A stretch of DNA of 56,253 nt from Bacillota bacterium (GTDB taxonomy: Bacteria > Bacillota > UBA4882 > UBA10575), in contig JAAYHY010000001.1 of NCBI GenBank assembly GCA_012735135.1, forward strand, positions 1-56,253. The letters are read 5' to 3'. The translations under genes were made by a program, and so were the position numbers. The notes under the pieces were generated by a model that was given only the letters and a program-made list of their open reading frames with translations, had not been told where the DNA came from and did no database searches. Within the stretch, counting starts at the first letter, position 1, and each line of letters begins with the position of its first letter. Shown here in pieces: positions 5,740 to 10,479 of this stretch.

Positions 5740-5913
5740 CTAACTGCATCCGGGCAATGCTAGTTTGCTATAAATTAGGTTCGTCTCATTTTTACGTACC
5801 ATGGCTATTTTTAAAAATCCACATTTCCTTTTTTTGGCAATTAGACCTCTCCTTGAATTTGGTATTTGCTCTTCGTCAAGCACATCAAAGACAATACGTC
5901 CCTTTCTTGACAT
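5740..5913 (-). CDS. hypothetical small basic protein
   Basis: A 57-residue reading frame starting MSRKGRIVF, chosen because AAAGGT lies about six bases before this ATG; a longer frame to 5988 has no such site. The product is Lys/Arg-rich (SRRGLIAKKRKCGF) with two cysteines and no signal peptide or membrane segment. Its start codon overlaps the -35 box of the plus-strand promoter at 5907-5935, so the two would be divergent and mutually exclusive. No family is recognised. AT-rich composition sets it apart from lhr. It may be a remnant of acquired DNA. Confidence 0.35.
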   Translation of the reverse strand: MSRKGRIVFDVLDEEQIPNSRRGLIAKKRKCGFLKIAMVRKNETNLIYSKLALPGCS

Positions 5914-5935
5914 TTTGAGACCTTTATTATACAAT
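5907..5935 (+). promoter_or_regulatory. sigma-A type promoter, copy 1 of a repeated promoter-leader unit
   Basis: TTGACA at 5907-5912 and TACAAT at 5930-5935 are separated by exactly 17 bases. Related promoters with the same spacing and a similar spacer occur at 6798-6826 and 7510-7538. It would start transcription near 5942 and produce the leader upstream of the chimeric gene at 6119. Confidence 0.7.
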
Positions 5936-5942
5936 TGTTTTA

Positions 5943-6083
5943 ACTTATAACAAGCAGTTTGGTAGAACGGTAGGAAATAGGAAGGCAAAGGGACAGACTT
6001 TAGCCGCCTCTCATGGAAAGATGGGGTTAACTGTTCCGTTTTGTGTAAAAGAAGCGCTCCTACCGGAGCGCTTTTCCTTTTTC
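5943..6083 (+). promoter_or_regulatory. 5' leader RNA with intrinsic terminator (copy 1), candidate riboswitch/attenuator
   Basis: About 110 transcribed bases precede a strong intrinsic terminator: AAGCGCTCC (6052-6060), loop TACC, GGAGCGCTT (6065-6073), then a T-rich tract. A short closing stem CAGTT / AACTG can form around the purine-rich core. The leader is repeated almost without gaps at 7546-7690. The core contains CAAAGGGACAGA, faintly like the 3' part of a glycine riboswitch, but the rest of that aptamer is missing. The ligand or factor is unknown. The arrangement (promoter, structured leader, terminator, then ribosome binding site) is that of a transcription attenuator. Confidence 0.5.
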
Positions 6084-6118
6084 CGCCAGGAAGCCAAGGA
6101 AAAAGGAGAGTGGACGCC

Positions 6119-6559
6119 TTGAAGAAAAAAGGGGTTTTATGGTTAGCCGTTATTCTTGTGATCGTCGCAGGAGCGCTCTTTTTTCTGCTCCGTAAACCGG
6201 CAACGGAAACATTGATGAAAACTCTTCTATTTGTTTTTTTAAGTCTTTCTTATTTAACAGTATGTTTACTTTTAGTGTCACTTGACAAAAAACATAATAT
6301 TATTAATTCTATAGTTTTACTATTTTTATCTTTATTTGTTTTTTTTGCAGTAAATCATGAAAGTCAAACCTTTATGGTTTTAAACCTTTTATGGGAAGTA
6401 TGGTACGTATTGTTTAATGGTACTTCTTATTTTGCTCATCGTTCGTCCAATGGAAAGATAAAACTACACAATTATAGTTTCCTGATCTGGGGTTTATTCG
6501 TACCCTATAATGCTATTTTTGCATTAACATGTTATTTATTTCTAAAATTCGGATTATAA
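6119..6559 (+). CDS. chimeric membrane protein: ABC binding-protein N-terminus fused to an AT-rich hydrophobic protein
   Basis: The TTG start at 6119 has GGAGAG nine bases before it, as in the paralogue at 7724. The first about 30 residues (KKGVLWLAV...LLRKPATETL) are nearly the N-terminal anchor of the ABC substrate-binding protein encoded at 7724. After that the sequence switches to an unrelated, very AT-rich membrane protein with about four hydrophobic segments and no recognised family. An internal ATG at the junction (MKTLLFVF, near 6214) could be the ancestral start of that protein. The gene therefore looks like the 5' end of a duplicated transporter gene joined to acquired DNA. Whether the 146-residue product is made is unknown. 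Confidence 0.5.
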   Translation: MKKKGVLWLAVILVIVAGALFFLLRKPATETLMKTLLFVFLSLSYLTVCLLLVSLDKKHNIINSIVLLFLSLFVFFAVNHESQTFMVLNLLWEVWYVLFNGTSYFAHRSSNGKIKLHNYSFLIWGLFVPYNAIFALTCYLFLKFGL

Positions 6560-7509: not shown

Positions 7510-7538
7510 TTGACTTTTCCCAGCCTTTAGTATAAAAT
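7510..7538 (+). promoter_or_regulatory. sigma-A type promoter of the ABC transporter operon (copy 3)
   Basis: TTGACT at 7510-7515 and TAAAAT at 7533-7538 with 17 bases between. This is the copy that still drives the complete leader and the intact binding-protein gene. Confidence 0.7.
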
Positions 7539-7545
7539 TGTTTTG

Positions 7546-7690
7546 ATTTATATCAGCAGTTTGGTAGAACGGTAGGAAATAGGAAAGCAAAAGGGACAGA
7601 CTTTAGCTCGCCACCCGTTGGCAGGATGGGGTTAACTGTTCTGTTTCGCAAAAAAGAAGCGCTCCTACCGGAGCGCTTTTCCTTTTTCCA
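7546..7690 (+). promoter_or_regulatory. 5' leader RNA with intrinsic terminator (copy 2), candidate riboswitch/attenuator
   Basis: Nearly the same leader as at 5943-6083. Terminator arms AAGCGCTCC (7657-7665) and GGAGCGCTT (7670-7678) enclose TACC and are followed by a T-rich run. The possible closing stem CAGTT/AACTG (about 7556 and 7633) is kept in both copies. It precedes the TrpXYZ-like transporter genes. It lacks T-box landmarks (no TGGNACCGCG), so control by uncharged tRNA is unlikely. The ligand is unknown. Confidence 0.5.
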
Positions 7691-7723
7691 CCAGGAAACC
7701 AAGGGAAAAGGAGAGTGGACCAG

Positions 7724-8710
7724 TTGAAGAAGAATGGGGTTTTGTGGTTAGCCGTGCTCCTGGTGGCCGTAGCGGGGGTGCTCTTTTTTCTCCTGCGCAA
7801 ACCGGCCACGGATACTCTGAAGATAGGGATTGTGCAGATTGTGGAACATCCGGCGCTCGATTCCGCCCGGGAAGGTTTTATTGATCTGCTGACGGAAAAC
7901 GGATATGTGGAAGGAGAAAATATAACTTACCAAATCCAAAACGCCCAGGGTGATATGGCCACCGCCAATACCATCGCCCAGAAATTCAAGAATGACAAGC
8001 TCGATCTGATTCTCGCCATTGCCACTCCCACCGCCCAGGCCATGGCAAATATCATTAAAGACAAGCCCATCTTGATTACCGCAGTGACCGACCCGGTCGC
8101 CGCCGGTTTGGTGACCAGCGCCGAAAGACCGGGGACCAATGTGACCGGAACCAACGATCTCCAGCCGATGGAAGGCCAGTTTAAACTGGCCCAGGCGTTG
8201 GTGCCCGGTGTTAAAAGGGTTGGGATCATCTATAACGCCGGGGAGACCAACTCCGTGACCCAAGTCAACATGGCGCGGGAAATCGCCGCCAAGTTAGGCC
8301 TGGAAATTATCGAAGCCACCGTTGATACCAGCGCCGGCGTTTTGCAAGCCGCCCAATCCTTCATCGGCCGGGTTGACCTTATTTATGTCCCCACCGTTAA
8401 TACCGAGGTTTCCGCTTTTTCTTCCGTCGTTAAAGTCGCCGAGGAGAATAAGATTCCAATTATTGCCGGGGAAGAGAATTTAGTAGCCCAGGGCGCCTTA
8501 GCCACGGTCGGCGTTAATTACTACCGTCTCGGCCGTCAAACAGCCGAAATGGCGCTGCGCATCATAAAAGAGGGAGCCAAACCGGAAACCATGCCCATTG
8601 AGAGCCAGAAAGAAACCGAACTGGTCATCAATGCGGATGTGGCCAAAGCCTTGGGGATTAACGTTCCCGCCACCTTAAGGGAAAAAGCAACCTTTGTTCA
8701 AAATAAATAA
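7724..8710 (+). CDS. ABC transporter substrate-binding protein (ABC_sub_bind/TrpX-like)
   Basis: A 328-residue periplasmic binding protein starting at TTG 7724, chosen because GGAGAG lies nine bases before it; the GTG at 7715 touches that site. Residues 1-25 form an uncleaved-looking hydrophobic anchor with no lipobox cysteine. The mature part begins LKIGIVQIVEHPALD and contains the family hallmarks QNAQGD, IATPTAQA, TAVTDPVAAGLV and GTND, typical of PF04392 proteins that pair with a membrane permease and one ATPase. Characterised relatives include the TrpX tryptophan binder, but substrates vary, so the ligand here is unassigned. It is first in a three-gene operon behind the attenuator-like leader. 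Confidence 0.88.
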   Translation: MKKNGVLWLAVLLVAVAGVLFFLLRKPATDTLKIGIVQIVEHPALDSAREGFIDLLTENGYVEGENITYQIQNAQGDMATANTIAQKFKNDKLDLILAIATPTAQAMANIIKDKPILITAVTDPVAAGLVTSAERPGTNVTGTNDLQPMEGQFKLAQALVPGVKRVGIIYNAGETNSVTQVNMAREIAAKLGLEIIEATVDTSAGVLQAAQSFIGRVDLIYVPTVNTEVSAFSSVVKVAEENKIPIIAGEENLVAQGALATVGVNYYRLGRQTAEMALRIIKEGAKPETMPIESQKETELVINADVAKALGINVPATLREKATFVQNK

Positions 8711-9698: not shown

Positions 9699-10479
9699 AC
9701 TGCATAAGATCTTTAATTGTGGCAAGGTTAACGAAAACTATGTGCTCTAGGATATTAACTTGGTGGTCCCCGAGGGGGACTTTATCACCATCATCGGCAG
9801 CAACGGAGCGGGGAAATCCACCCTGCTGAATCTGATTGCCGGCACCTTTTTTCCGGAAGCGGGAACGGTGGAGATTAACGGGAAGGATGTCACCCACTGG
9901 CCGGTTTACAAACGGGCGCCCCTCGTCGGCCGGGTTTTTCAAGATCCCCTGCAAGGAACAGCCGCCGAAATGACCATCGAGGAGAATCTTTCCCTTGCGG
10001 TCAAACGCGGTCAGCGCCGGGGTTTACGTTTGGGGTTGGATAAAAACCGGCGGGCGGAGTTTATGCGTCTCCTCTCCTTATTGGAACTGGGCCTGGAGAA
10101 ACGCCTGGATTGTCCGGTCAAATTACTCTCCGGCGGCCAGCGGCAAGCTCTTACCCTGCTCATGGCCACCATAGGCCAACCCCAACTCCTCCTTTTGGAC
10201 GAATATACGGCTGCCCTGGACCCGAAGACAGCCCAACAGATTATGGCTATTACCGACCGGATCGTTAAGGAGCACCAATTAACCGTCCTGATGGTCACCC
10301 ATGACCTGAAACAGGCCTTGGCCATGGGCAAGCGCACAATCATGATGGACCGGGGCGAAATCATCCTTGATCTCAAAGGGAAAGAACGGGAAAAAATCAC
10401 CGTCAACGATCTGCTGGCGAAGTTCGCCGCCAAGAGTGGCCGGGAACTAACCGACGACCGGATCTTATTACATGGTTGA
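9682..10479 (+). CDS. ABC transporter ATP-binding protein (TrpZ-like) interrupted by an in-frame amber codon
   Basis: The natural start is ATG 9682, with AAAGGGG eight bases upstream. Codon 23 is TAG (9748-9750) where relatives normally have a residue such as Gln (NYVL-stop-DINLVV). After it the protein is intact: Walker A GSNGAGKST, Q-loop VFQDP, signature LSGGQRQ, Walker B LLLLDEYTAALDP and the switch histidine VTHD. A TTG at 9760 could restart translation; the AGGA overlapping the TAG is a possible ribosome binding site. The restarted product would lack the first beta strand. The gene may be a recent pseudogene, a re-initiating gene, or carry a base-call error. Confidence 0.8.

Follow-up and report, generated by a model that had tools for sequence, protein, structure and literature searches.

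A conserved leader in front of an ABC transporter operon of a Bacillota bacterium as a proposed HutP-family-dependent attenuator of aromatic amino acid genes

The window, meaning the whole stretch of 56,253 nucleotides that was analysed, carries two copies of a leader, both at the positions claimed in the initial annotation. Within the 2.56-Mb genome to which the window belongs, these copies lie at 7540-7770 and 5937-6150 and are 88% identical, and no third strong copy could be found there. The same search gave further weak DNA matches on contigs C94 and C64 (C64:12101), while a weak match on C86 was rejected as it looks like coding sequence when read. Both copies contain GGTAGAACGGTAGGAAA, and each follows the same order: a promoter of the form TTGAC(A/T)-N17-TA(A/C)AAT, CAGTTTGGTAGAACGGTAGGAAATAGG just 3' of it, a variable hairpin, and GCGCTCCTACCGGAGCGC with a T-rich tail. 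The following features were assigned to the downstream copy (copy 2) and its operon.

7510..7538, + strand: predicted promoter of the ABC operon, read from the sequence, with -35 box TTGACT (7510-7515), -10 box TAAAAT (7533-7538) and a 17-nt spacer
7557..7575, + strand: triple-triplet site CAG-TTTGG-TAG-AACGG-TAG, an exact match to YAGNNNGGTAGNNNGGYAG and the proposed binding site of a HutP-family protein
7571..7577, + strand: 5' strand of the proposed antiterminator, GGTAGGA, overlapping the third triplet and complementary to 7663-7669
7593..7642, + strand: intervening hairpin region (GGGACAG ... CTGTTCTG), variable in relatives, from fold predictions and the alignment
7655..7690, + strand: intrinsic terminator AGAAGCGCTCC[TACC]GGAGCGCTTTT with T-rich tail, from a terminator finder, its hairpin being present in 11/11 aligned leaders
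7663-7669, + strand: 3' strand of the proposed antiterminator, TCCTACC, inside the terminator
7724..8710, + strand: PF04392 substrate-binding protein (Pfam, 287.5 bits), with a probable TTG start at 7724 that is aligned with ATG in loci L008 and L014
8775..9698, + strand: ABC permease (BPD_transp_2; Pfam, 81.3 bits)
9760..10479, + strand: ABC ATPase (Pfam ABC_tran, 91.9 bits), given as the longest listed frame; the true start may be upstream

For the upstream copy (copy 1), four features were assigned.

5907..5935, + strand: predicted promoter TTGACA / TACAAT, read from the sequence
5955..5973, + strand: triple-triplet site, identical to that of copy 2
6050..6085, + strand: terminator, from a terminator finder (GCGCTCCTACCGGAGCGC at 6054-6071)
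6119..6211, + strand: about 31 codons remaining from a duplicated substrate-binding-protein gene, the signal peptide similar to 7724-7816, followed by unrelated sequence

The predicted promoter of the ABC operon is supported by a TTGAC...TAtAaT box that stands equally distant from the leader in congeners, and it would place the transcription start of copy 2 at about 7545; GCGCTCCTACCGGAGCGC and the T run of this copy occupy 7659-7676. The leader had been described as lying in front of a PF04392-type ABC transporter. This holds for copy 2, which precedes an intact operon, but not for copy 1 (5943-6083), which is followed only by the 31-codon remnant, and the frame 6041-6559 gave no match in a Pfam search. 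Since just these codons of a second binding protein remain, copy 1 (5943-6559) is, to judge from its sequence, a decayed duplicate of the start of the ABC operon in which the leader is complete. On the NCBIfam TrpX model NF041285 the substrate-binding protein of copy 2 scored 315.7 bits, below the cut-off of 390.

A blastn search among 149 relatives revealed the core of the leader in 7/7 congeners as well as in further genera of this family. It is located before the same ABC operon in genera g1 and g2, so that conservation in homologous operons, which had been named as a check on the leader, was found in these genera and in all congeners; in genus g3 the same core, again with a terminator, precedes a DctP-type (TRAP-T) transporter. 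Two blastn matches in distant genomes (L016 and L017), where neither a terminator nor a related gene was seen, were taken as chance. Searched against Rfam, the whole window gave nothing at the gathering score, and a lax threshold returned only chance terminator-like matches near the leader. The initial annotation, which had matched the leader to no riboswitch class and had suggested this search, is supported in that respect, and it was also right that the leader is not a T-box, as no T-box or stem I match was obtained at either threshold.

The structure ascribed to the leader was borne out in part. With the terminator included, the two copies fold better than shuffled sequences (z -3.1 and -4.1); without it they hardly do so (z -1.0 and -1.2), and the structure of the leader is therefore mainly that of its terminator, which is indeed strong. 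In an alignment of 11 leaders, AGTTTGGTAGRAYGGTAGGAAA and the terminator GCTCCTRCY-GG with its T run are invariant. One of the two blocks first taken as conserved, GGTAGAAYGGTAGGAAA, is kept outside the window, while the other, GGGACAGACTTTAG, varies freely in this alignment. The CAGTT/AACTG stem thought to close the structure is lost in relatives, AACTG being confined to the two window copies. Between core and terminator, relatives differ in both the length and the sequence of the leader, and what is kept there is a hairpin of changing sequence. Consensus folding backs the terminator and part of this middle hairpin, and little else; a compensatory change was found for 2/19 consensus pairs of the 11 leaders, one of them in the terminator hairpin (G-C to A-U).

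The invariant stretch of the leader proved to be a linear repeat, YAG-N3GG-YAG-N3GG-YAG, with spacers of five nucleotides between triplets, an exact 8-nt period and GG before each later YAG. Each window copy holds nine NAG triplets at mixed spacing, three of which are conserved. Searching 16 genomes of the family with YAGNNNGGTAGNNNGGYAG yielded 31 sites, about ten times as many as the reversed pattern (about 3-4), and 29/31 belong to aromatic-related genes. These comprise 11 sites in ABC operon leaders (both window copies included), 11 over the Shine-Dalgarno sequence of aroF (DAHP synthase), three in leaders of DctP-type transporters, two in hutP leaders and two before a gene resembling tryptophanase or tyrosine phenol-lyase; the other two look unrelated. 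The genome of the window has exactly three sites, namely the two leaders and aroF (G000:C140:16406-16424). At aroF the repeat covers the Shine-Dalgarno sequence without any terminator. The gene for the beta-eliminating lyase (L206, 1501-3003; L205) has the triple-triplet site in its leader, where no terminator was seen, and its product reached 608 bits on the NCBIfam tryptophanase subfamily model and 452 bits, below the cut-off, on the tyrosine phenol-lyase model. This site suggests that aromatic catabolism may also be part of the regulon. A repeat-like sequence, CAGGAYGGCAGGAYGGAAG, was also noted upstream of a gene of unassigned family in two related genomes (L218 and L219, motif at 1501), and may be due to chance or mark an extra regulon member.

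The last repeat of the core, GGUAGGA, is complementary to UCCUACC in the 5' arm and loop of the terminator, and the pairing of the two would form an antiterminator that is mutually exclusive with the terminator. When the transcript was truncated after UCCUACC, this pairing was predicted with P 0.98 and 0.97 for the window copies and with P 0.9 or more for most relatives; two relatives did not favour it (L013, 0.03, and L011, 0.41). Complete transcripts strongly favour the terminator over this pairing (P = 0.00 for the antiterminator), so that the switch would have to be kinetic and act before the 3' arm is made. Complementarity between core and terminator arm was found with letters that differ by gene, i.e. 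UAGGA/UCCUA for the transporters, UAGUGC/GCACU for hutP and CAGGAG/CUCCUG for aroF. Over 38 leaders, the real cores gave a more stable duplex with the arm than did shuffled ones (mean z -1.4), which is indicative only as the sequences are related.

A HutP-like protein is encoded elsewhere in the same genome (hutP, C140:18710-19090; PF09021, E 2.4e-45, or about 1e-45). Its gene is the first of the operon hutP-aroH-(histidine-phosphatase-like)-hisC-aroF-tyrA, in which aroH encodes chorismate mutase and aroF, with its own copy of the repeat, is fifth; in relatives aroA follows the hutP...tyrA operon. A scan of the genome collection recovered 442 close relatives of the protein. Among the best 80 of these 442 hutP loci, aroH was located close downstream on the same strand in 72, and in many of the 80 it is followed by hisC, aroF, tyrA, aroA or trpE. 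Within the clade of the window, 12/14 hutP leaders carry the repeat, compared with 0.8 in dinucleotide shuffles; most hutP leaders outside this clade are without an obvious triplet site.

The assignment of this protein to the HutP family was supported at the level of the predicted fold. The ten best PDB matches of its AlphaFold model (pLDDT 88) are all HutP chains, with a TM-score of up to 0.77, and a profile built from aromatic-type proteins and one hut-type sequence retrieved the solved HutP structures from the PDB with E 7e-20; a phmmer search of the PDB with a single aromatic-type protein found nothing. The NCBIfam models do not cover the aromatic-type HutP, while they do cover the true hut-type HutP of genome G038. 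The latter (L095, G038:C50) lies amid apparent histidine-degradation genes and could serve as outgroup for the aromatic branch. In the HxxxH motif of hut-type HutP (HALYH), both histidine positions are occupied by glycine in the aromatic branch. We take these histidines to hold the metal and the histidine ligand in the HutP of Bacillus subtilis, and since the pair is replaced by glycines, the ligand or metal site of the aromatic branch should differ. Another divergent protein, the second HutP-family member of its genome (L096, G031:C6), is encoded upstream of apparent P-II and nitrogenase (nif) genes and may represent a further HutP subfamily with another role.

Beyond the family, the two-repeat pattern YAGNNYGGYAGGAYGG, PF09021 and PF02081 were each searched in 398 genomes of the phylum. 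As this looser pattern also matches coding sequence in many genomes, the YAGNNYGGYAGGAYGG sites were judged by position and context only. Among the matches listed, in genomes with a listed hutP, at least 25 of 80 sites fall within -1..+10 kb of hutP on the same strand where 0.15 would be expected, and none on the opposite strand. Genomes G030 and G116 were used in designing the pattern, and there may be overlap in a few more loci, but omitting them leaves the picture unchanged. Forty-five sites of the phylum were read, and 27 of them are leaders of aroF, hutP, aroH, tyrA or a DctP transporter, nearly all of which are followed by an intrinsic terminator. The third YAG, which was not part of the search pattern, is present in 18/27 of these leaders and in 1/18 of the other sites (P = 4e-5, a value that is indicative only, some of the 27 leaders coming from related genomes). 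The triplet pattern is degenerate outside the clade of the window.

With the repeat, its restriction to these genes, the complementarity of core and terminator, the HutP fold and the operon linkage established by computation, the leader is quite probably an attenuator of transcription that belongs to an aromatic amino acid regulon and depends on being read by a HutP-family protein. HutP as the binder, its ligand and its polarity are each what we infer. With nothing bound, GGUAGGA would pair with UCCUACC as soon as the latter is transcribed, and the resulting antiterminator would allow expression of the ABC operon. Once tyrosine, phenylalanine or possibly tryptophan became abundant, the HutP-family protein would bind the three triplets, UCCUACC would be freed, the terminator would form and import would be shut off; it is because the antiterminator strand contains a triplet that a bound protein would favour termination. 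A leader of this kind would also let HutP repress its own operon; at aroF, repression would result from the bound protein masking the Shine-Dalgarno sequence, and a terminator would be unneeded. Attenuation at the leader and cover of the Shine-Dalgarno sequence at aroF would each be consistent with an aromatic end product repressing these genes by feedback. An aromatic amino acid is also suggested as the substrate of the ABC operon, from this regulation together with the sub-threshold TrpX match.

As the main rival reading, the binder could be TRAP (MtrB), which with tryptophan bound would recognise the YAG repeats and terminate or repress these genes in place of HutP. TRAP reads NAG triplets and acts on trp and trpP in Bacillus subtilis, and the logic would be the same here, as abundance of the end product would make a ring protein that reads triplets block an antiterminator or mask a Shine-Dalgarno sequence. 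The gene mtrB is present in this genome (C75:45712-45912), in 16/16 genomes of the family and in 27/28 of the motif genomes checked, compared with 200/398 in the phylum, and both the nine NAG triplets at mixed spacing in the window leaders and the TrpX score of the substrate-binding protein, although below cut-off, can be read in its favour. However, the trp leader of the same genome (L070, on C75, with mtrB directly upstream and trpE following) contains about eleven (G/U)AG, most of them at 5-nt intervals, within a stretch of about 50 nt, and because these are classical 5-nt repeats, TRAP appears to use its usual spacing here. This trp leader also has a terminator, and more NAG triplets lie around the trpE start. 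Where a TRAP-type site would have about 9-11 (G/U)AG with 2-3-nt spacers, the present leader has three conserved YAG, and its site differs from that of TRAP, a protein of another family, in having just three triplets at an 8-nt period with added GG instead of about eleven at 5 nt. Moreover, the repeat marks hutP, aroF, aroH and tyrA and occurs near hutP far beyond chance. In genus g24, a genome consisting of a single contig (G036) has HutP but gave no TRAP match, and carries a three-triplet leader with terminator directly before aroH; three other genomes of this genus (G082, G120 and G206) are not among the TRAP-positive genomes listed. In view of the canonical trp leader, the spacing, the linkage to the hutP operon and the genus lacking TRAP, TRAP is an unlikely binder.

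Equally improbable is that HutP binds the site but acts in the reverse sense, bringing about antitermination or activation. This is how the protein acts on the hut operon of B. subtilis, where HutP with bound L-histidine prevents formation of the terminator (PMC7430163). HutP proteins are reported to recognise NAG repeats in clusters of three (PMC7430163), and the system described here shares with hut (PDB 1wmq, 1wpv) the family PF09021, the predicted fold, the three-NAG cluster and, by our reading, amino-acid-dependent control at a terminator. The aromatic-type protein has about 25% identity or less to hut-type HutP, the targets are aromatic biosynthesis and transport, and the predicted sign is opposite. 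The triplet spacers of B. subtilis hut are four nucleotides long, whereas those found here are five, with added GG. In B. subtilis the triplets recognised by HutP are part of the terminator region, but here they lie far upstream and overlap the antiterminator strand, and the terminator AGAAGCGCTCC[TACC]GGAGCGCTTTT holds no triplet triad, i.e. no second cluster is present in the terminator region. Binding at aroF, where the site covers the Shine-Dalgarno sequence, should repress, and feedback repression would be expected for genes of biosynthesis and uptake.

The leader had been put forward as riboswitch-like, and a conserved leader that ends in an attenuator was indeed found, with a linear triple repeat in place of a conserved aptamer fold. 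A true riboswitch, in which the leader RNA itself binds a metabolite, would account for the conservation, the switchable terminator, the transporter downstream and the lack of an Rfam match. It is nevertheless very improbable, for no conserved aptamer fold is seen, the region from core to terminator is variable in length and sequence, covariation is limited to the terminator and a few middle pairs, and aroF carries the same linear repeat without that region. The linear repeat, the terminator-free copy at aroF and the genomic tracking with hutP favour an attenuator read by a protein over an RNA that binds a metabolite. Direct repeats near a promoter might also be a DNA operator for a transcription factor, a reading that can be dismissed with similar confidence given an 8-nt period out of step with the DNA helix, a repeat whose sequence changes together with that of the terminator arm in its own transcript and an aroF copy inside the operon at the Shine-Dalgarno sequence. 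In summary, a genuine and conserved leader is present that appears to have gone unreported, and it is best explained as a target of the aromatic-type HutP and not as a riboswitch.

To our knowledge, HutP has so far counted as a curiosity of histidine use in Bacillus that concerns a single operon. The openly licensed HutP literature, among the matches listed, contains nothing on aromatic genes, and a description in a subscription journal is possible; nothing in the openly licensed literature joins HutP with chorismate mutase. A survey of attenuators from 2010 mentions neither HutP nor DAHP synthase (PMC2965389). The TrpXYZ system of Streptococcus suis, which is controlled by a tryptophan T-box (PMC9382623), resembles the present locus in its TrpX-related ABC operon and in having a leader with terminator; here no T-box was matched in Rfam, and a repeat read by a protein is proposed in place of tRNA.

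Taken together, the leader is most likely part of an as yet unreported circuit that governs both synthesis and uptake of aromatic amino acids and occurs widely among clostridia-like bacteria. It is also reasonably likely that a large, undescribed branch of HutP was re-purposed from histidine use to the sensing of an aromatic amino acid. In many Bacillota this branch would act through YAG triads with 8-nt period, using attenuation as well as translational repression, on chorismate mutase, DAHP synthase and prephenate dehydrogenase, on its own gene and on transporters of aromatic amino acids. If this is true, many HutP-family members in Bacillota would regulate the common aromatic pathway, as a second triplet-reading switch beside TRAP, and hundreds of unnamed hutP genes would obtain a function. 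Aromatic amino acids would be the predicted substrates of the PF04392 operon and of the DctP-type transporter, and the family would offer a test system for how one RNA-binding fold changes its ligand and the sign of its action.
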